Source: a virus
DNA length: 64,000 bases
Strand: one strand, 5' to 3'
Virus record (IMG/VR): IMGVR_UViG_3300028829_005098
Span: 51,416 to 115,415 of that record
The notes under the pieces were generated by a model. The model ran no database searches. It had not been told where the DNA came from and saw only the letters and a program-made list of their open reading frames with translations. This document shows positions 16,444 to 40,368 of the stretch, in pieces (position 1 is the first letter of the stretch; each line of letters opens with the position of its first letter). Both the position numbers and the translations under genes were made by a program.

Positions 16444-18108
16444 TCATTCCATTTCTCGCATTTCACCAGAAAAAGTCATAAATTTACTATCTGCGAACGT
16501 TCTTGTTCCATCGTTTACACCACCCTTTATTGTAAATTTCTGCTCATTTAGTGATTCTTGTGTTTGTGATAACAATACCTGTTGTAGCATTTGTCCTGAA
16601 TCTAATTGTTGTTGTGTTCTTGTATTATAGAAATTACTTGATTCAATATATTCTTCATCTTGCATATAATAAAAATTTAATCCATCGTATTGATTTGGTT
16701 TTACAGAAGGAATAGTTTTTCTAATTGGTTCAAATGGTTTAGTACGACTTGTGTTATACAAATAAGATAATTCTGATTTTGCTTCTTGTCCTATTTCTAC
16801 ATCTCCATAATCAAGTATTTCCGAAAAAACAAATACACTATCAACATCACCACTAAATCTTCCAACTTCTAAATTCTTTAAGTTTGCTAAATCACGTTCG
16901 TGTCCTTCGTCAATTGATGCTCTATAAATATTATCTACAAATAATCTTGCTATTCCAGACGGATATAACATTAACACCAACCAAGTCCATTTATTTTTTT
17001 CAATTGTTACATCCTCAAATGTATTATCCATATACGACCATGTGCTAGTTCCATCTGTTAAATCTTTTTTTGTATTTTTCCATGTATAACCAATTGTTCC
17101 TGTTATTGTTTCATCTCCTTCTTCTCCATTTGTATTTACAATCAACGCACATCTAGTATTTTGTTCTGGTGTATTTTTGAGCATAGAAGTTTTTGTGGAT
17201 GTGTAAGATGAAGTCGATGTAGGAGTTGGTGAGGGTGTGGGTGTGGGTGTTGGTGTGGGTGTTGTTATTGTAGGGTTAGTTCCGATAATTGTAGATGAAG
17301 GTTTTGATTCACCTACAAATTTTACCCATAGTGCGAATGTTAAAGCATTTGTTTCTATTGATGAACCACTTTTTTGTTCAATATACTCACTTGGATTATA
17401 TAGTTCAACATCTTCAACATTTGTAATATCATTTCCAAGTGATGCAAATGTTGATAATCCACGATTTTCTCCAGAATCTTTTATATGACCATGTAAATGA
17501 CCTGTTCTACCGTGGGTTGATAAATCTTTAACTCTGTAATGATTCCTAAAATCTGCATGAATTGCTGTTTTAGTAGGTGTGGGTGTTCTTGTGGGTGACG
17601 GAGTTGGTGTATTTGTGGGTGTGGGTGTTCTTGTGGGTGACGGAGTTGGTGTATTTGTGGGTGTGGGTGTTCTCGTGTGACTTGGAGTAAAAGTAGGAGT
17701 TTTACTTGGACTTGGTGTTGGTGTTTGTTGTGTAATTTCTGCACTCTGCGTTGTTAGATCTGCAATACCAATCCAACAGGTGTTATCAAGTGGTAAACTA
17801 TCATCACCATCGTCTATTAATGATAATTTTAAAGTAACTTCAGACGTATCACTTACATCGTTTCTTTCTACTTTTAATCCGTCGAAACTTAATATAACCG
17901 ATTTATCTTGTTCTAATTTTATATTAAAGGACGAACCAAATTCAGTAAGTAATCTTACATTTTTTGAAAACCCAATCTTAAATAAGGCATCTACAAACAA
18001 ACCGGATACAGTTGCAAGATCATCACCAAACTTCAAATACTTAATTTCATCGTCTCCGATTGTTGATTCAAATACATTAAAATTTTCAGAATTTATACAT
18101 TCACCCAT
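16444..18108 (-). CDS. LamG/concanavalin-like virion protein with Pro-Thr-rich linkers
   Basis: An N-terminal beta domain (1-125) is followed by a Pro-Thr linker with PSPTRTPTPT repeats (about 130-182), then a LamG-type jelly roll (LTFALWVKFVG about 250, WTWLVLMLYPSGIARLFVDN about 370, LEVGRFSGDVDSVFVFSEIL about 410). A second Pro-Thr tract (about 282-300) interrupts the LamG domain between strands, and a helical C-terminus follows. The linker DNA holds two exact 42-base copies. LamG domains bind glycans or proteins, so this is probably a receptor-binding or decorating tail protein. It is separated by one base from the giant gene upstream. Confidence 0.82.
   Translation of the reverse strand: MGECINSENFNVFESTIGDDEIKYLKFGDDLATVSGLFVDALFKIGFSKNVRLLTEFGSSFNIKLEQDKSVILSFDGLKVERNDVSDTSEVTLKLSLIDDGDDSLPLDNTCWIGIADLTTQSAEITQQTPTPSPSKTPTFTPSHTRTPTPTNTPTPSPTRTPTPTNTPTPSPTRTPTPTKTAIHADFRNHYRVKDLSTHGRTGHLHGHIKDSGENRGLSTFASLGNDITNVEDVELYNPSEYIEQKSGSSIETNALTFALWVKFVGESKPSSTIIGTNPTITTPTPTPTPTPSPTPTSTSSYTSTKTSMLKNTPEQNTRCALIVNTNGEEGDETITGTIGYTWKNTKKDLTDGTSTWSYMDNTFEDVTIEKNKWTWLVLMLYPSGIARLFVDNIYRASIDEGHERDLANLKNLEVGRFSGDVDSVFVFSEILDYGDVEIGQEAKSELSYLYNTSRTKPFEPIRKTIPSVKPNQYDGLNFYYMQDEEYIESSNFYNTRTQQQLDSGQMLQQVLLSQTQESLNEQKFTIKGGVNDGTRTFADSKFMTFSGEMREME
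17581..17664. repeat. Exact 42-bp tandem repeat (2 copies) in a Pro-Thr linker
   Basis: Plus-strand positions 17581-17622 and 17623-17664 are identical, and a third, diverged partial copy follows from 17665. The unit is 14 codons, so gain or loss keeps the frame and changes linker length. Confidence 0.9.
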
Positions 18109-18109
18109 T

Positions 18110-21100
18110 TTACATATCCTTTTTAATCACCGAAATTCTTGTCTCAAATACATTAATCATCTCACCAACACAAATTGAAGTATCTTCAGGTATATGTGAT
18201 AAATTTTGATTGTTTAGTGTAATTGTTATGGTGTTATTTTCACTACTTTTAATTACACTTTCTACAATATAAAACTTTTCACTAAATTGATTGATTAACG
18301 TTCCACTTTCACACGATGAATTGTCAAAGTTTAAGTTATCAATATAAATAAGGTCACCTACATAAATATCATCAGATTTTGTGGTTGAACCTTTAAGTGG
18401 TTCAACTACAAGTGTCAATTCATCTTTTGTAAATTCGTTGGATGTGGAATCTACTAGTGCAAATGTTTTGGATTTTATATCATCACAAAAATATCTTTCA
18501 ACATTCATGGTATTTTTAAAATCCTCAATATTTTTAGGTGTCCACAGATTTATATCACATGGATGTATTTTATTTCTGTCACTTTCGATTGTTTCTCCTT
18601 CTGCATCAGTTATTTCACCCAATTTTCCATTAGAGTATGCTTCTGTAAAGTTGATGTGTTCAAATGTGGTATTTTCTCCAATTTTGTACATGAGTTTCCA
18701 CCATTTAGTTTCATCCCAATATATGTATGCCGATATATTTCCACCCAAAAGTTTATATAAAGGTTTATTGTTGTATTTTCCGTTTAGATAATAAGTTCCA
18801 CTTAAATTTTTAGTATCATCATTTGATACTGCACCATTTACACACAATGCAGTTGGAATATCGTCACTTGCATCTTTTAAATCATTTTCATTTAGTGGTG
18901 TTACATCCCAAGGAGTTGGTGTAAATGTTGGTGTAAACGATGGTGTTGGTGTAAACGATGGTGTTGGTGTAAATGTAGGAGTTTGCGTTGGGGTTTCTGT
19001 TGGAGTTTTTGTAGGAGTTTTAGTTTTGGTTGGAGTTGGAGTTTCTGTTGGAGTTTCTGTTGGAGTTGGTGTTTTGGTGGGTGTAGGTGTAGGCGTAGTT
19101 GTTTTTGTAGGTGTGGGAGTTGGTGATGGAGTTGGTGTATTTGTCGGAGTTGGTGTTTCTGGCCAATTTATCATAGAAGCTTCATTAAAAGCATAATAAA
19201 TTTCCAATTTACTTTTTACCTCAGAACTTAAATCTGTATATGATTTGATATTTTGTGTTGGTTCTACTATTGCATCGGTTGATGTAACAGGTTCGTCTTT
19301 TATGAACCAGAACGAATCTAAGTAATCTGTTACTCCGTCTCTACTCATTACATTTCGTGTTCTTACTATCGGTGGTGTTCTGTCTCTTTCACCTGCACGA
19401 TTGGTTGTTGTAAAAACACTATTGATTGTATTTCGTCTGAACATTCTTCTTTTAGAACCAATATGCTCTCGTAGTTTTCCTCTTTGTATAAGTTCTCCAT
19501 TTACTTTAATTTTGTTTACATCACATAGTCTGTAATCTATTTCATTGTTATATACATTATTCTCAATTGATGTTACAATTATGTCTCGTTCATCTTCGTC
19601 CGATGAATCTTCAAATGCTTCAATTATATTTTTGTCTTCGTTTACTTCAAAATCATTTTCAATTATTAATGTTCTATCACGAGATGTAGTTGTGTTTAAG
19701 TCAATGCTAACACTTACTTTATTAATTGTTGGAATACTACGATACTTTGATATTGTGGTGTCATATTCATATACAAATTTATTGTCTCTATAATTTAGAA
19801 TTCTATTGTAAGTGTCTTGTTCTCTTATTATTATTTCTTCATGCTCTACATCACCAAAAAATTCAAAATCAAAATTTATTTTATTTTTATTATCTGTTAA
19901 TTTTCCATCTGTGTTTAATTTTATTTTTAATTTATTATAGTTGAAATCTTTTTCAAAGATGTTTGAATCATAATTAAAATCAAGTGGAATAATACTAGTT
20001 GTTCTATTTGATGTACTTGATAATACTTTGTTAATTTTAAATGCATTTGATTCTTGAAATTCACCGACTTTTGTTTTTACCTCATAGGTAAAAGTTTTTG
20101 GATCATATTCATTTACTTCATTGGTAGTTTTATCATCAAAATCAAAGTTTATTTTTCTATTTGCAACAATTGCTTTATTTTCATTGGAAATCAGTTCACC
20201 ATTTTTGACCATATAATAAACACCAAACATTTCATCCAAATCACGATTAAATTCATCTAGTCTAATATATTCTTTATATTTAATTTGCTTATCTGATAAT
20301 ATATCAGTAATACACCAATATTCATTTCCTGTGTATTCTTCTATGTTATAGAAAACAAACCAATTATATTCACTTGCCCATACATATCTGTTATTTTTTT
20401 CTAAAGTGGTTTTACTAAATTTTACATTATTAAGTTTTTCATTATCAGATTGTGTATACAAATTTATTACATCGTATTCATCTTTTTCAAAATACAAATA
20501 AACATTACTTCCGTTATCAGAAATGTATCTTCCGTATTTAGGAAATTCTAACAATGGATTGGTGTTTTTAATTGTAACAGATTTGCTTGATAAAAATCTA
20601 ATAGGTATTGTTCCTACAATTGTCCGTGGATACACTTCCCACCCGATATCGTTATAGCCGAGTACATAATTCCAGTTCAATAAATTTTCGTAAATTGGAA
20701 ACTCAGGTAACGAAAATGAAGATGGTGGTGAGCCTTCATCTGAAACATCTGCAATGCCATATTCTCCGTAGAAATTTATTATTTCATCATCACATATTAG
20801 TTTAGTACACTTTACCTCCATATACACAGAACCATTAATATCATTTAGATTTCCTCTTTGTCCTATATACATAGACGAAGCATCTTGTGGTGTTATAGAT
20901 ATATCAAATGTTGATGTTGCATTATCAACACATGAATTACAAGCATCATCATTTCGTGTACTTCCCCAATCTATTGTAGTGTTTCCACTTTCTGACAAAA
21001 GTGTAGCATTTATGAATGCTTGTTCTATTGTTAAATTTCTATTTTGAAATGAATAAACATTTGGAGTTATATCGTATGCAATTCTAAAGTTAAAATTATC

Positions 21101-24100
21101 AGTAATACACGCACCTTCTGATGATATAAAAGTAATTCTATCTTTGTTTATTAGATTGCTTGTTTTGGTCATTAGTGGTTGTAAATCCGCAGAAACAACC
21201 CAAACAGATATACTTCCCTCTTTTGTTACATAGTTATCTTTCCATATATAATAATCGTGGAGATTTCTATAAACCGGATAATTATTTCGTGTTGTATTAA
21301 CAAGAAAGTATTCACCTTCAACTTTGTTGTCTTTGTTTGAAGTTGTGTTGTTTCCTAATAGTCTTACATTTGGTTTTAAGTCACCAAACTCATTAGTGTA
21401 AAATACCTCTATGGACAAATTAGAATCTCGTGTTGGTTGAATTTTTTCGTATATCCCACGGGTTGGAAGTTTTGTTTCAACCGAATTGATTGATATTGCC
21501 CATGCTAGTATATTGTTTCTAGCACCAATATAATTTACCGCAAATTCATCGGCAAATTCGAATGTATCGTGTATTGGTATAAATGTAAAAGAATTATCAA
21601 TTACATCTTCGTTTCTAAGTTGTGCTTGTTGCTTTACAAACTCTTGGTCTTTGCAACTCTCGCAATACATTTTAATACTAGCAGAGTATTCTTCATCGTA
21701 CTGAATTGGACCAATTCCTATATTTGAATCAAAATTATTTACATTTATTTCAAGTGGTTTCGTTGAATCGTAAATTTGTGTGTTATTGCCATATATCCAT
21801 AAAGCATTCTCATCGTCAAATAATTCGGTTTCGTCTATGTTAAATAATGTTGTTGTATTGATTTTGATACAAACCCAAGCACCTTCAACATTGGTATCTA
21901 TTAGATTTCTTTTATTCAGACTATAAAATACTAACCAATCTCCGTTTTGGTGGATGTATGCAGTTTTTCCATTCTTTCTCTGTGCAGTTGTACGATATTG
22001 TCCATTTGCCGATATAAATCTTCCAACGAATCCACTAATTATAAATCCATTGTATTCTGATGTACCGAGTATTAAAAAATATCCAGAAGATGAACTTTCT
22101 TGCGGAATATATGCTTGATTGTATATAGGATTTAATTTACAACGATACGATAGAAATTTATCTTTTACATTTATAGTAGTTATTGCGTTTAATGTGTCAG
22201 ATGTATACACGATTGCTTCTGCATCATCACTTCTATTTGTATTAAGTTCACGATTTACCCCTAAGAAATATTTAACTTTTTTATTAGCAGTAAGTCGGAG
22301 ATAAACATCATCTCCTAATTTTAATGATTCATCTATCGGAAAACTTAAATTCTGTTTTATCTCAATTTCGTCTTTTTTTATTTCATCTTCACCTGATTCT
22401 ATGTTTAGATAATTCACACCACCTCGTATAGATTCTTCATAAGAGTTTTTTACAAAATCATAACTATGAACATTTATATAGTTGCTTTTTTCTTCATCAA
22501 GATATCCAAGTAAATAAACATATTCATCACTCAACTCACTGACATTATATTTTAATATGCAACAACGATTATTCTCAAGTTCAGCAATAAGTTCTTCCTT
22601 TGAAATTCTATTAGTTTGATATTCACTTTCATAAATTTCATCAAATATTAAATTAGAATAATCAATCAATTCATCATTATTACTTAATTTTGTAGTTGTT
22701 TGCTCACCTATAAAACTATTAGATCCAGAGTATAAATGATTCTGTTTTAAATCATAACCTTTTGCATAAGTTTGTATATCACCAACAAATTCTTGTATTT
22801 TTTTATTATATACAAACTTCAATAACAAATCTATTTCATATTCTTTTCTACTAGCACTTTGCTTATATTTTATATTATATTCTAAGTTTGGATTATTTTC
22901 TCGTTGAATTAAATCTATATAATAAGAAATTAATTTTACATTTCTTAATTCAGATGTTTCTATTTTAATATTCGTATTTAATTTTATATTTGATAAAAGT
23001 GGTGGTTGAATTATGTCTTGAGTTTTGTGATGATATATGTTGTCGTATTTTGCCAATGTATTTCTTTTTGCAACACCATCTTCATAGAAAATTACATTAT
23101 TTAAATTTCTTTGAATTTTTACTTTTCGTGTTGCTTCAAGACGATTCTGAAATTTATATTTTATTTTAGTTGGTGTAGGAACAAGTTTTATTTTTTCAAA
23201 ACTTTTAGTATTTTTTTCTATTTTGCTTGAGTCGTATAGTCCTAGATCAACAAGAACATAGTTGGGATCATTTTCTACGATTTCATTAATATTGCCATGC
23301 ATTTGCTTGTTATTAAAATTACACCCACCGAATCGTTTATTGTTATAAAATCCATTTCTTAGAATAAAATCACTTCCTGTTTTTTTATTACCAACATACC
23401 CTCTTTTAAGTACACCGGAAAAGAAACCATTTAGTCTGAGTTTTTTATGTGAACCTTGAAATCTTGTGTATCCATTTCGTTTTACAACTACTTCATTGCC
23501 ATTTGAATCTAATGTTATTTCATTATATTCACCATTAAACGACCCCTTGATTTGGCAATCTACTACTCCAAATACATCTCCTTCAAGTCTCATTATTTTG
23601 TCACCACCCACAGAAATTTTGGTAGAAAATGAATAAAACTTATAGTAAGTAATCGGTCCTGTTTTTCTAACATTTAAGAAAAAATCACTCCATGTTGTAT
23701 ATGCCCCACTTAGTTTTGAAATCTCTTGTGATACATTAATAGAGAAATCAGACGGAAAGTACCCATCCTCATCTACACTTGCGTAGAATCTTATTTTATT
23801 TCCATTAGATAATATTTTTTCTGTGTTTCTATATTTAAATGGGTCTTCGTTTACAAGCACCCATGCACTTACATATGGTTCGTAATATATAAACCAAGTA
23901 GATGCAGAGTTTTTAAATACTCGTTTCTTGTTTTTATTACGTGTTGAAGTGTATCTTCCTTCAGCAGATACTATATTATTTTTCTCAGATACACTCAATC
24001 TATCTTTGTCGTTTATTACAATATCAATTGTATATTTAGTAGAAATAGTATAATCAACTAGACCTGATTTGAATTGTGAATTTGAAAATAATTCTATGTT

Positions 24101-27100
24101 AGTTTTTTCTACTCGGTGTAGTTGTCCGTCATGATAATAATGACCGAACATTGTTGTGCTTCCAATTGAATCGTGTGAAATTGAATAGTCATAAAAGTTT
24201 GTATGATAGTTGTCTTTGTAAGATATACCACTTACTTTATTGTAATTAAAGTTACTGCTTAGACATATTATATTTTCAGAGGAAGGTTTATCTTTAAAAT
24301 GCTGATTGTTTGCGAATGAAACAATATCTTTATTTTTATGTGATGCTTTTAATCGTATATTTTTAAGTGGTTTAATTTTATCAGATGATTCAATTACAGT
24401 TACATTATCTGTATTTACCTGTATTTCATTATCAACCCCAATTCCCTTTAACTTGCTTCTTTCTAATAATGTTGGTTCTACGACTAGTCCAGATATAACA
24501 CGGGAACGTGCTGGTAGTAATTTTTCAAAATTAGAAAATAATGATTCATCGAGATATGCTTTTATCGTATTTAAATAAACTCCCCAGTCGGTTCTTGAAA
24601 AGCCCTCACGAAAAAATAATTTTCTAAAGTTTTCAAGTTCTTTGTATTTCTTTTTAGAATAGTCTTCAGGGTTTCCGATATAATCACCAAGTTTAAATTC
24701 TCCAAAAAATTTAACTATCTCCTCGTTTAAGGGAATACTAGGACCAAAGAATAAACCTATTGTATTTGAATCCTTTCCGACTCTATCAAGTGACTTTTTA
24801 GTTGATCTATTATACGGAGATAACGGAGCAATTATTTCTTGTTTTTCTTGTCGTATTTTATTGTTGTTAAATACGTGCATACCAAAACTTGGTAATTTTG
24901 CAAATTCTCTTTTGAACTTTCCTATAAAATCAAACGGAAATGTATTATTATTAAAATTAAAACACTTTGCATCCTTGGGTGCGGAGTCTGAAAATGAACT
25001 ATTTGGTATGATGCCATAACCTCTTCTATAATTACTTGCATCTGAAATGTCATGTGGTGAATCAAAATTAGATTTAAATACAAGTATCTTTTTTAGCCTA
25101 GTTGGATTTTCTATATCATAAGACTGAGAAAAAAGAATGTGGTTTTCGAATCTTTTCTCTGATATTGTTCCTGTGTATATTCTTACTCTATCAAGAATTC
25201 CTTTAAATTTATGTTCCGTGTTGTTTCCTATGAACAATGATTTACTTTCAGAAAAGTTATTAAAAACTCGTTCATCAACAATCGCATCAGATTTGGAAGA
25301 GAATACTATTTTACTATCAAGTTTTCTTTTGACTACAATAGTAATTGTTTTTCTTTTAAGTTTATCAAATTGTTCACTTTTCTGTATTAATATATCGTAA
25401 CCACCTTCAAACCAAGCATATATAGGTTTTTCGGTTTCGAGTGGACACATTTTTTCGTATTCGTGGGATTTAAAATAAAATCTACCAAATTGTCTGTCAT
25501 TATCTGGTAATAGTCTTACTCCAAATTCCCAATCACCACATTCAATGATTCTAATTTGTGTACCAAGTTCTTTAGCACTCTCGTTCAATGCGACATTAAA
25601 CTCTATTGTCGTTGGTTTGTTATTATTTTCATTCCAAGGAAATTCTACATACTGATTTTCCTGTTGTATTGAGAGTCCATAATCGTATGAATCAAACACA
25701 AATGCTGGGTTGTTCGTTGTTGTATCTGAGTATTCCGTTGCTCCACCGTACTCTCTTATTGAAAATAAATTATCAGGTACGTCGTAGCATCTTAGTAAGG
25801 CATTTATCGAAGCAAGTGTTCCTTTAGTTTTTAACAAATATGGTAAATTATTTAATACACGTCTCCATACTTGATTTCTTCTATATTCAACCGAGTTTTC
25901 GTTTTTAATTCCTACTTTTGATAAATCATCAGATGAAGAATCTTGTCCATCAAAATTCATTCCGAGTGAATTTAAAAAGTAATAAACAAGTTGATCAGGT
26001 ATTCCTTTATTTGGAGAGTTTCTTACTTTCCTTGAATTTCCCATATTTTCGATATATCCGTGAACAGTATCGAAGTGTAGGCCTATGATGTTTAGAAAGT
26101 TAACAAAGTCTTCATTCGAGTCATCTCGTATCAAAAATTCAGGTATACTATTCACAAGGGACTCATCGTTACCTCTGTCAAAATACATTGCTTCTTTTAA
26201 TTTCGCCGAATACCATTGATATGCGTGTGTTTTTCTCCACTCACCTGATTCACTTGGCATATAAGAGGGAGCAAGTTTTCCTGTTTCTGGTCCTAGGTCT
26301 ATTAATTCTCTGGCACTTTTTAATTTATCATCTAAATTAAATCCCTCTGAGTCTAAAACTGATATTGTGTATTCAAAATAATAACTATCTTCTTTTATCT
26401 TAATCCAATTTGACAAAGTAAAATATTCTGTGTCTGATAATACCCAAGCACTATCTTCATTTGACCACCACAAAAACCAATTTGCTTGTTCGTGTTTATA
26501 TTTGTATTTTTTATTTAAAAAACCATTTCTTACATATCTACCATTTGCAACATCATTTTTTCCATTTATTCCAGAAATAAATAAGTTATCATTTCTTGGA
26601 TATGAGTGTTCTGAGTCTTCGTAATATAAAAACTTTTCATAACCACTTAGTGTCATAAGTTCTGTATTTAAGTCTCGTTTTGCTGAATCTAAATCAATTT
26701 TTCTTAAAACTTGAATGGCAGACTGAGAACCTCCAGAAACTGCTAGGTTATTCTCTATGTCTCTTTCTATTTGTATAATGTTATATTCAATATCTTTAAT
26801 TGTTTTAATTAAATTAGATATTTTTTGGAATTTTAAAATAAAAACTTCTAGTTGACGTGTTGCTGAAGAATACTTAATAAAATTCTTAAAATCTGAATAG
26901 TCGTATTCTACATTATTTAAATTTTTATTATAGTAACTTGAAATTGACTTACTGCTTTCATCTAAATTACTTTCTTCCTGTTGCTCCAAGTCCTCTTGTT
27001 TTAATTTTTTTGTACCTGTATTGGATATAATTGCACTTTTATTTGGACCTCTTAATTTAAAAGCATTTGTCTGTGTAGTTTTAAAGAAATTTGCTTTTTG

Positions 27101-28270
27101 CATTATATCATCGGAGTATAATCTTGATGATATGTAGATTTTTTGACTTACCTCAATTTCACTTGGAAGAGGTTCAAGTAATTTAATGACTATTGGACGA
27201 TGTTTTTTCTCATCATCTATATTTTCATTTGTAGGAACTATTGATAAAATTGGAAATGTATTTCCGTTTCCAAAATTAACAACATTGTTTAAATAAGTTT
27301 CAAATCTATCTTTATAGATTGTGTTTAAATAATCAACATCAAACAAAGAAATATAAATTGTTTTAAATAAATTATCTACATCTTCATCTACATTTTCTCC
27401 ACCAAGTCTCGGATGTGAAGATATAATGTAATTTACAGAATTTAGGTATTCAATATAAAAATCCGACAACGTAAATGTATTGTTGTATACACTTTTTAAT
27501 CTGCTTTTATACAAATTAAAAATATTATTTTTTAAAATATCTGCACTAATAAATACATCCTTTTCAGTTCCACCACCAAGCAATGTTATTGCTTTGTTTA
27601 TTATCTCGTCATACCCCTCCATTAATTCACGAAGTTCAGATTGATAATTTTCAGAACGAATTTCTACGTCTCTTAATAGTTTATCCGTGATATTGTATAC
27701 CGATGAAACCGGAAGTTTTTTATTTAACAAGTTTTCATACTCATATGAAAGTGAAATATCTTCAGGTTTATTTGATATTTTTAAACACTGAGGTATTACT
27801 TTTATTTCCGTTCGGGTGGTGGAGATTTCTTTGACAACTAATTTACTAGAATTTTCAAACGAACCACATAGATCATTCAAGAAACTATATCGTATATAGT
27901 AACTACCTCTATCTAAGTTAAGTTCTTTTGCATCATTTACAGGTGATACAAGTACATTATTATTTACACTTGTATAGTTGCTTTTGAATATTTGAACATC
28001 ACCAGTTATCTTTTCTCCAAAATAATTGGTATACTCAAGTTGTTCTCGTTCAAAGTGTGGGTTATCATCAACGACTCTCCACCCAATAATCTCTTTGTTT
28101 AAATTGTATACCGAAAATTCAACAACATCTTTTGGACTTAGTCCAAATTCATAAACATCAGGTTCTTCTTGAAATGATATACCAAGTGTAGATTTATCTA
28201 CATAATAACCTCGTGTAAGTTTACCTTCACTTTCTTCGTAGGTTTGAATATACTCTAGATTTACTGACAT
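18110..28270 (-). CDS. Giant tail/baseplate-associated protein (3386 aa)
   Basis: A single intact frame of over 10 kb. Residues about 700-840 contain [20 protein letters not shown] and [22 protein letters not shown], a segment recurrent in large-phage tail proteins and comparable to P2 tail-protein-I-like regions. Residues about 843-1045 form a concanavalin-like domain ([23 protein letters not shown]). At least six copies of a Trp/Tyr-rich module (G-x-Y ... W-x-[LIV]-x-[YW] ... W-[VK]-[LVI]) occur near 570, 1433, 2085, 2315, 2575 and 3155. A Pro-Thr tract spans about 3035-3120. Upstream of it in the operon are the DNRLRE-type and gp6 genes, so it is likely a long fibre or baseplate-attached adhesin. 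The exact role is unknown. Confidence 0.85.
18905..19165. repeat. Pro-Thr codon repeat tract in the giant tail gene
   Basis: Imperfect [14 protein letters not shown] units on the minus strand (about 87 codons). It forms a flexible linker between the body and the C-terminal 260 residues. Similar tracts occur in the LamG gene and in the broken-frame membrane-protein gene. Confidence 0.85.
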
Positions 28271-37943: not shown

Positions 37944-39657
37944 TTAATTACTTTTTTCGTCTTTGTTTGTGGGTATATTACCAAGTGTACTGTTTGGGAT
38001 ATATCCGTTTGAGTTTTTGTATATTTTATTTACAAAATATTTATTATGAGCATCCATTGAACTTTTTTTCCAAGGAACATAATAAGGTCCTTTTGGTTCA
38101 AATATAGGGTCATCATCTTCACTATGCAATGGTGTTGAAATAACATTATCGTCCTCCAAGTTTCTTTTTACAGTTTTTGGAGTCGGGTTTGGTGTGGGGG
38201 TCGGTGTTGGAGTTTCCTCGGGTGTAGGAGTCGGTGTAGGTGCGGGGGTCGGTGTTGGAGTTTCCTCGGGTGTAGGAGTTGGAGTAGGAGTTGGGGTTGG
38301 AGTTTCCTCGGGTGTAGGAGTCGGTGTGGGGGTTGGGGTTTCTTCAGGTGTTGGGGTTGGAGTTTCCTCGGGTGTAGGAGTCGGTGTAGGAGTTGGGGGG
38401 GTGTAGGAGTCGGTGTAGGAGTTGGGGTTGGAGTTTCCTCGGGTGTAGGAGTTGGGGTAGGTGTTGGGGTTGGAGTTTCCCCGGGTGTTGGAGTTGGGGT
38501 GGGAGTTTTTATATCGTCTATAAAGTCACCCTCTCTTTGAAATCTATCGGCAAACGGAAGGTCGTCTATCCAGTTTTTTTTTTCGGCATCTCGTAGTCCC
38601 TTGTGATTTTTCCACCTATCATAATATTATATGCAAGTACAAGTGCAACTGCAACCGGATCAAAAACAAGAACAATTACAATAATAAACCACTTAACTAC
38701 CGTATCTACTTCTGAGTTAAATGACTTTGCTATAAATTTAAAACTGCCAATATCAGTTGCACGAATAGATTCTTTTTCTTCTAGAATTTTGGATTGATTT
38801 TCTTTTATTTTGTTATAATGTTTTTCTATAATTGGTCCTGTATTTACTTCTTTTGTTGTATCTCGCAATCCATTTACTTTTTCTACAAAAATGTCGTATT
38901 CTTTTTGTATTTCAGTATCAAGTCTTGTAATAGTTTCTTTATATGACTTGGATGCAGTTTCTTCTTCTTCCGTCAGAGTTTTTAATGATGATGTAATCGA
39001 GTCTCTTTCAGTTTTTTGCAATTCAAGTAATTCTGCTACTTTCTTTTTTGTGTCAACAAAGAAACTATTCTTTGCTTCAAGGTCACTTTTTGCTTTATCT
39101 AAAACTTCCAATCTATTTAACAATTGTTGACGTCTGTTCATCATATTTTCTGTGTCAGACTTTCGTCTTTCCGATAAACTTTCCTGTCTCTTTCTTCTAT
39201 CGTCAACAAAATCATCGTATATTTTTTGAAATCCTGCTATTGTATCTTCTTTTCTATTATCAACTTTGTCGGAAGTATTTTTAAGTGTAGAAATTTCTTC
39301 TTCTATTATTACTATCTCTTTGTTAAGTTGGTCTATACTTGCCTCGTGCATTTCTACCCGTGAACGAGTATCATCATACGCATCACTTAAAAAACCATAA
39401 ATACCAAGTGATGTAATTCCCACTAAAACTATAACAGATATAGTAGAATACCATTTTAGCATTCTTGGAATTCTGTCCCAATATCTATATAAGAAGGATG
39501 TCATTGCAAGTTTACCTGCCTCAAGTACACCTGCCATTACCATAGCAGCGATTGATGCACCTGCAAACAATAAACCTATACCTCTTACAGAGAAGAAAGC
39601 AGCTGTTCCTGCTACTGCTAATGCGAGTCCACCTATTATCGCAGTAAATAACTTCAT
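37944..39657 (-). CDS. Membrane coiled-coil protein with Pro-Thr-rich tail; frame broken at two homopolymers
   Basis: Zero-frame translation from 39657 gives 363 residues: two N-terminal membrane segments (5-50), a third (about 68-90), a long coiled coil (100-300) and a fourth hydrophobic segment ending [14 protein letters not shown], then a stop at 38566 right after an A10 run. One base back at the A10, the frame continues as [18 protein letters not shown] into (PT)n EETPTPT repeats. At a C7 run (38394-38400) a second one-base back-step is needed to keep the repeats in frame through to [10 protein letters not shown]... and the stop at 37944. The whole stretch is thus coding, and either frameshifting, recent indels or homopolymer miscalls explain the breaks. 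GAGGAG before the ATG is a good ribosome-binding site. Function unknown; possibly envelope-facing. Confidence 0.7.
38170..38512. repeat. Pro-Thr-Glu-Glu codon repeat tract
   Basis: Minus-strand units of [10 protein letters not shown] recur at least seven times with a C7 run inside. Read on the plus strand it makes spurious Gly-Val repeats. It is prone to slippage, which fits the frame break seen here. Confidence 0.85.
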
Positions 39658-39717: not shown

Positions 39718-39741
39718 AAAAAAGGGAGCATTTCTGCTCCC
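39718..39741 (-). terminator. Rho-independent terminator after hsp20
   Basis: On the minus strand GGGAGCA, loop GAAA, TGCTCCC, then six T. It is a perfect 7-bp stem with a stable tetraloop, about 32 bases past the hsp20 stop, and separates hsp20 from the membrane-protein gene. Confidence 0.92.
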
Positions 39742-39772
39742 TAATTGATTTTTAAAAGAAATATATATACAC

Positions 39773-40267
39773 TTAGAGTATCTTAACTTTCTTTGCCTTT
39801 GTTTCTATCACTTCTCGTTTTGGAATTGTAACATTAAGAATTCCGTTATCGAATTTTGCGGAAATATTATTTACATCTAGGGTAGAATCATCCACTCTAA
39901 ATGATCGTTTAAATGAAGATCTTTTAAGTTCCTTGTAAACATACTTTACACCAGGTTCTTCAATATCAAACTTTTTATCTCCTGAAATCGTAAGCATTCC
40001 ATCTTCATATTCAACCGATACATCTTCTTTTCCAAGTCCAGCAATTTCCGCCTCAATTCTAACATCATTTTTAGTATCTGCAACATTTACTCTTGGATAT
40101 GAACTATTTCCGAAGAAGTTTACTCCAAATTCTTGACTAAAACTTGGAAATGCTTGATTTACTACTTTGTCAAACAGAGAATCGAATGGTACTAAGAATT
40201 CGTCTCTAAGATTTGGAACGTGTTTATTTAGTCCTGTTCCGTTGGACTTATAATTATATTTTTTCAT
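39773..40267 (-). CDS. hsp20: Small heat-shock protein (Hsp20/alpha-crystallin family)
   Basis: From the chosen start the protein has 164 residues. The alpha-crystallin domain runs from YPRVNVADTKNDVRIEAEIAG through DGMLTISGDK, RSFKRSFRVDD and AKFDNGILNVTIPK, including the G-x-L motif and the C-terminal IxI-like end (VKIL). It is an ATP-independent chaperone that may protect phage or host proteins during infection. The start at 40267 is preferred because AAAGGAAAA precedes it at the right distance. The in-frame ATGs near 40333 would make a 22-residue extension encoded by two RNA hairpins. A terminator follows. Confidence 0.93.
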   Translation of the reverse strand: MKKYNYKSNGTGLNKHVPNLRDEFLVPFDSLFDKVVNQAFPSFSQEFGVNFFGNSSYPRVNVADTKNDVRIEAEIAGLGKEDVSVEYEDGMLTISGDKKFDIEEPGVKYVYKELKRSSFKRSFRVDDSTLDVNNISAKFDNGILNVTIPKREVIETKAKKVKIL

Positions 40268-40289
40268 TGTATTTTCCTTTGTTTTGGTT

Positions 40290-40335
40290 ACGAACCCCGA
40301 TTGGGCATTCGTGAGTGACCCGATAGGCATCACTC
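40290..40335 (-). ncRNA. Two tandem bulged RNA hairpins in the hsp20 leader
   Basis: Two 23-nt hairpins abut on the minus strand: 40335-40313 and 40312-40290. The outer stems differ (GAGTGA/TCACTC versus ACGAA/TTCGT), but both continue with a T.G pair, a single unpaired G, a CC or CCC / GG or GGG helix and a tetraloop TATC or AATC. Paired changes in the outer stems with the core kept suggest selected RNA structure. GC content is well above the surroundings. There is no T-run, so these are not terminators. They may be a protein-binding operator or thermosensor for hsp20. Confidence 0.6.
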
Positions 40336-40368
40336 ATATTATAAATATAATTGAATATGTAAATATTA

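Follow-up and report, generated by a model that had tools for sequence, protein, structure and literature searches.

The hsp20 gene of the viral DNA stretch analyzed here (the window, 64,000 nt, from a virus record of 115,415 bases) was preceded by two abutting hairpins that, on comparative evidence, are a real RNA structure under selection. Judged from their sequences, the hairpins are of the hairpin I type of the ROSE family, present as two units and without the thermosensor hairpin. The reading that we favor, with a probability of roughly 0.4, is that this tandem bulged-G leader would serve chaperone feedback as a protein operator to which Hsp20 binds; the binding, the identity of Hsp20 as the ligand and the direction of the effect are what we infer from the evidence given below.

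Both hairpins lay on the minus strand at a distance of 23 nt from hsp20, which occupies positions 39773-40267 of the same strand and encodes a 164-aa protein of the alpha-crystallin family (PF00011, E = 1.1e-19). Hairpin 1 (A-type, 40313-40335; GAGTGAT[G]CC(TATC)GGGTCACTC), identified by sequence, RNAfold and the single-hairpin model R3, consisted of a 7-bp lower stem closed by a U.G pair, a single bulged G, a 2-bp upper stem and a 4-nt loop. Hairpin 2 (40290-40312; ACGAAT[G]CCC(AATC)GGGGTTCGT) was identified by sequence, RNAfold and covariation. Each was 23 nt long, with zero spacer between them. When the leader was folded with RNAfold, the minimum free energy structure and the centroid were both exactly these two hairpins (-21.1 kcal/mol; folding z = -2.5), and an equally good fold was reached in 3 of 200 shuffles. 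The preliminary description of this DNA had reported two abutting 23-nt hairpins with differing stems and the same bulged core, located before an hsp20 gene, and the fold and the family match agreed with it exactly. Within the window alone, the core pattern gave one or two approximate matches, which is about the chance expectation and not above it; the evidence for the structure is therefore comparative.

A protein scan of viral contigs yielded 47 hsp20 loci, and tandem hairpins of the window design were found in every one of these loci that had upstream sequence. In the closest clade (27 distinct leaders), 486 of 486 pair cells were standard pairs (100%), compared with 31-54% pairing in slid controls, and compensatory changes on both sides occurred at 7 of 18 pairs; the observed values were reached by none of 500 shuffles. 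In all 27 leaders, no variation was seen at the bulged G or in most of the adjoining core. Loops interchanged among UUCG, GAAA and UAAC, so that the conserved part is the bulged-G core. A covariance model built from 27 other phages (R1, trained without the window) matched the window copy with E = 8e-8 (2.8e-8 when the search was confined to its 115-kb record); these values are rough, as are those of R3. The public viral contigs are fragments. The covariance-model search was one of the checks proposed in the preliminary description; recurrence and covariation in related phages were clearly present, and the view that varying stems around a constant core reflect selection on RNA structure is strongly supported by the covariation.

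More distant loci (approximately 40, with 46-58% identity) were recovered by a profile search with Hsp20. Among 64 distinct leaders, a bulged-purine hairpin descriptor found at least one hairpin in 60 (23% in shuffles) and at least two in 47 (2.3% in shuffles). Because a MAFFT alignment of all leaders misaligned the divergent clades, alignments were built per clade. One distant clade aligned on its own had 96.6% of cells paired and double changes at 6 of 16 pairs; in this clade, the bulge of hairpin 1 was an A, and confident matches occurred once per genome, 5′ of hsp20. A scan of viral contigs for the tandem pattern returned no contig with the element from outside the hsp20 set, and a search of a genome collection returned a single phage-like contig, located inside a Halobacteriovorax MAG. 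An R1 scan of 192 genomes of the Halobacteriovorax phylum, run without a positive control, gave no match. No match to the locus was found among isolated phages with blastn, and the nearest isolates by gp6 (Microcystis phage Mel-JY01 and Flavobacterium phage immuto) were without hsp20.

When whole records were searched with R1, a second copy of the element was found in seven relatives, roughly at least 50 kb from the first. All seven second copies were located approximately 30 nt 5′ of a gene for a full-length phage DnaK of 634-644 aa (L057-L063, marine relatives). HSP70 was encoded in 8 of 21 records, the eighth record ending inside the gene, and the element was thus 5′ of dnaK in 7 of the 7 dnaK genes with upstream sequence; hsp20 was present in every dnaK-bearing record. 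The placement 5′ of dnaK in relatives was not visible from the sequence on which the preliminary description was based. Between the dnaK and hsp20 copies, the lower stems differed and the core AAUGCYC/GRGRUU was identical. In a 161-kb relative (G001), the only matches of the tandem model were the hsp20 and dnaK copies. HSP70 was not found in the available part of the window's own record. Phage-encoded DnaK and Hsp20 were already known (PMC12619734, PMC3037559).

The kinship of the hairpins extended to cultured phages and to bacteria. Nine isolated T4-like cyanophages (P-SSM4, S-RSM4, S-H9-1, ACG-2014e, S-CAM8, P-HM2, Bellamy, S-CAM9 and S-SCSM2R) carried an A-type hairpin, N5[G]CC(NNNN)GGG, in the leader, followed by CUC[G]CU(U)..(A)AGGAG or a GUC/GAC variant enclosing the Shine-Dalgarno (SD) sequence. 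Hairpin 1 of the window was identical to hairpin A of S-RSM4 at 18 of 19 central nucleotides (GTGATGCCTATCGGGTCAC vs. GTGATGCCTAACGGGTCAC), and the hairpins of the relative L027 and of L246 were identical at 19 of 19. Across 52 A-type hairpins, the covariation score was 0.441 (0.147 in shuffles), and the bulged G, C9, G15 and G16 were invariant. Model R3, trained on these 52 rows with the window hairpin and ibpA hairpin I among them, matched window hairpin 1 with E = 1.3e-5; it also matched the E. coli ibpB leader, which was outside the training set, with E = 3.5e-5. The E. coli ibpA leader (ROSE_2, RF01832) contained two bulged-G hairpins of the same kind, hairpin I GACGC[G]CC(UGAU)GGGUGUUC and hairpin II GACCU[G]UCCA(UUG)UGGAAGGUC, plus an SD hairpin, and the ibpB leader contained AUGCUC[G]CC(GUCA)GGGAGCAU. 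Both E. coli leaders differ from that of the window in having the 3′ thermosensor CUC[G]CU..AGGAG.

The window gave no Rfam family match at gathering or relaxed thresholds. Several cyanophage leaders were matched over the full length of ROSE_3 (RF02523), all below threshold (best, 28.8 bits, E = 0.019). The consensus hairpin I of ROSE_3, ugCGgGAU[G]CCG(AAgU)CGGGUCcCG, has the bulged-G design of window hairpin 1 and likewise stands 5′ of a small heat-shock gene, whereas the window leader lacks the SD-enclosing UYGCU hairpin and has two units of the hairpin I type, and the window-type element also occurs 5′ of dnaK in relatives. The literature searched contained no account of a phage leader of this kind, and the papers on cyanophage small heat-shock proteins that were checked made no mention of leader RNA.

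Other leaders and matches were recorded in the same searches. S-CAM8 had a second A-type match inside the uvsX coding region (HQ634178.1 136700-136722, L334; 26.8 bits, E = 1.2e-6). The hsp20 leaders of Vibrio phages (L226, L227) had another hairpin that is conserved between them, GAG[A]CAATA(GARA)TATTGCTC, whose lower stem carried a bulged A. Pelagibacter phage HTVC115P (55 kb, L228) had a bulged-G hairpin and CTC[G]CTT(AACGA)AAGGAG 5′ of hsp20.

In the operator that we propose, the leader would be 5′-terminal and would consist of two tandem units of the ROSE hairpin I type, carried by the monocistronic hsp20 mRNA and also by the dnaK mRNA of relatives. Free oligomeric small heat-shock protein would bind the stacked bulged-G cores beside the ribosome site, and the chaperone mRNA would be translated less while Hsp20 is bound. 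Once Hsp20 is titrated off by misfolded or assembling virion proteins, hsp20 and dnaK would be released together. Comparison of the hairpins of one leader, of different genes and of different phages showed a fixed core with variable stems and loops; this pattern, the placement at chaperone genes only and the tandem sites suit an oligomeric protein and favor an Hsp20 operator. The coat-protein operators of RNA phages (MS2 type) similarly have a bulged purine below a short upper stem that is capped by a 4-nt loop; the window differs from them in that its hairpins are tandem and no such protein or gene is present there.

In E. coli, IbpA binds the structured 5′ UTR of its own mRNA and thereby represses translation, for which R93 is needed and reportedly irreplaceable; IbpB is suppressed as well (PMC10474464). 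A small heat-shock gene under its own leader hairpins is the mode proposed here for the phage; no mapping of the IbpA binding site within its leader was found in the literature searched. A-type hairpins stood 5′ of both ibpA and ibpB, the genes repressed by IbpA. IbpA also controls rpoH, and no A-type hairpin was found in the E. coli rpoH region in the sense orientation, which counts against the operator. When Hsp20 proteins were aligned with IbpA, Y34 was conserved in all eight aligned sequences and R93 was kept in the cyanophage Hsp20s. The Hsp20s of the window clade had Ser at the position of R93 (with K115-R116 just ahead of it in the window), which weakens the case for an Hsp20 operator in this clade and is its main gap; IbpA self-repression differs from the window case in this residue, and in the window case we infer the binding.

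The order of elements in the hsp20 unit bears on a second explanation. A promoter-like motif (TATATTTAT, predicted, 40341-40349, minus) preceded hairpin 1, and its ATATTTA was conserved among relatives, 5-7 nt 5′ of hairpin 1 in 28 of 28 related leaders, several of them with TTGACA approximately 17 nt upstream. The 5′ end of the hsp20 mRNA is therefore probably at hairpin 1. The hairpins were followed by an SD-like AAAGGA outside them (40275-40280, minus; pairing computed), by hsp20 and by an intrinsic terminator just past the gene (AGGGAGCAGAAATGCTCCCTTTTTT, 39718-39742, minus). A terminator was located 7-30 nt past the hsp20 stop in 47 of 47 loci, which makes the unit monocistronic, with the order promoter, tandem hairpins, SD, hsp20 and terminator. 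The hairpins might thus stabilize the 5′ end, shielding a short abundant mRNA from 5′-end-dependent decay; the 3′ end would be protected by the terminator hairpin. The promoter position, which would make hairpin 1 5′-terminal, and the constant terminator are consistent with this explanation, as is the stabilizing role proposed for ROSE hairpin I (PMC3669281). However, a plain stabilizer needs neither an invariant bulged G nor a fixed CC/GG core. The promoter motif of hsp20 was present 5′ of 10 of 61 window ORFs, and tandem bulged-G hairpins occurred at hsp20 only, the other window ORFs with the same ATATTTAT motif upstream having no hairpin pair; across phages, the element was found only 5′ of hsp20 and dnaK. 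We regard 5′-end stabilization as unlikely, while keeping it as a serious rival.

Two further features of the leaders concern the promoter and the start codon. In many leaders of a distant hsp20 clade (L153-L168, L172, L174-L176 and L180), GG-N10-GC was found, resembling sigma-54 -24/-12 promoters (for example, TGGCATAGTTTTTGCA in L153); it was located approximately 12 nt ahead of hairpin 1, which would place the transcription start at hairpin 1. The window clade instead had TTGACA-17-TATATT or ATATTTAT at the promoter position. The bulged G of one hairpin was the G of an AUG that was in frame with hsp20 in some relatives and out of frame in others (window 40330-40265; L006, L008, L011, L014, L020, L027 and L037). 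Since the frame was kept in only some relatives, the upstream in-frame AUG within hairpin 1, which would give a 185-aa Hsp20, was not accepted as the start codon.

The other serious rival is an operator for a different trans factor, which would be an RNA-binding protein of the host or a regulator, distinct from Hsp20, of the phage. The same conserved core and an architecture that resembles known bulged-purine protein operators would suit such a factor, and regA, a gene for a translational repressor, was directly upstream of hsp20 in 6 of 9 cyanophages (L219-L221, L223, L224 and L229). Nevertheless, no candidate gene tracked the element as hsp20 did, and the element was present in unrelated phages and in the E. 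coli ibp leaders, with the chaperone gene as the common factor; we consider this explanation improbable, though not negligible.

Temperature sensing, raised as a possibility in the preliminary description, fared less well. In a true ROSE RNA thermometer, the structure melts on heating and the ribosome site becomes accessible. The lineage of the hairpins is ROSE, chaperone genes lie downstream, and 66 of 69 distinct cyanophage-type leaders from viral contigs had the SD-enclosing hairpin CUC[G]CUU(..)AAGGAG. In the window, however, the SD was outside the hairpins, and a search of 29 distinct leaders of its clade revealed no genuine hairpin enclosing the SD; the apparent SD hairpins of L125 and L134 proved to be hairpin 2, and that of L128 was judged spurious. 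At 25°C, the SD was unpaired with a mean probability of 0.68 in the window clade and 0.93 in dnaK leaders; the values for cyanophages and E. coli were 0.14 and 0.04, respectively. The window's own SD had a value of approximately 0.35-0.48 at 25°C, being partly paired because of weak CC/GG pairing outside the hairpins. Since the SD was largely unpaired both in the clade and before dnaK, the function would hardly come from its occlusion. In silico, both hairpins remained folded well above 55°C, with more than 80% pairing at 65°C. An SD outside the hairpins and the absence of melting in silico do not support a temperature sensor here, which we regard as quite improbable. The missing SD-enclosing hairpin, the mostly accessible SD and the stable hairpins point instead to the front part of a ROSE element without the thermometer.

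Very improbable is an antiterminator RNA similar to HK022 put, in which the hairpins would bind the polymerase that made them. The put sites are two stem-loops, and putL is located just downstream of its promoter (PMC9378689). The window leader resembles them in its phage origin and in its two adjacent hairpins just downstream of a predicted promoter, and differs from them in size (46 nt vs. approximately 70 nt), in stem structure (put has long stems and a triplex) and in gene context, being restricted to chaperone genes, with the terminator past hsp20 in all 47 loci indicating that readthrough is not the goal. Least credible is a CIRCE-like DNA operator bound as a duplex, for which palindromic stems close to a promoter would be suitable, but which is contradicted by frequent and conserved wobble pairs (U.G at the bulge in 24 of 27 leaders, G.U at one position in 15 of 27), by far lower R1 scores on the reverse strand and by conservation of the asymmetric bulge.

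The Hsp20 operator also bears on ROSE elements themselves, whose 5′ hairpins have a role described as not fully understood (PMC3669281). The phages kept and duplicated the 5′ hairpin, lack the thermosensor and placed the pair 5′ of a second chaperone gene, which shows that the hairpin is selected for itself and suggests that the front half of ROSE works on its own. Window-type phages are, in this respect, a natural dissection of ROSE. We tentatively suggest, at somewhat less than even odds, that the ROSE 5′ hairpin is an independent operator rather than a folding aid, read by small heat-shock proteins and detachable from the thermometer, and that its tandem use runs an hsp20 and dnaK regulon by chaperone titration and not by temperature. 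If so, the virus would encode a chaperone regulon that is controlled through RNA. The element is compact and dozens of natural variants of this RNA exist, which makes the role of the ROSE 5′ hairpin testable.

Elsewhere in the window, the large structural proteins contained long repeats of the PTPTPTPSPT type (16444-18108 and 18110-28270, minus), and a plus-strand ORF (38194-38406) contained a glycine-valine repeat.
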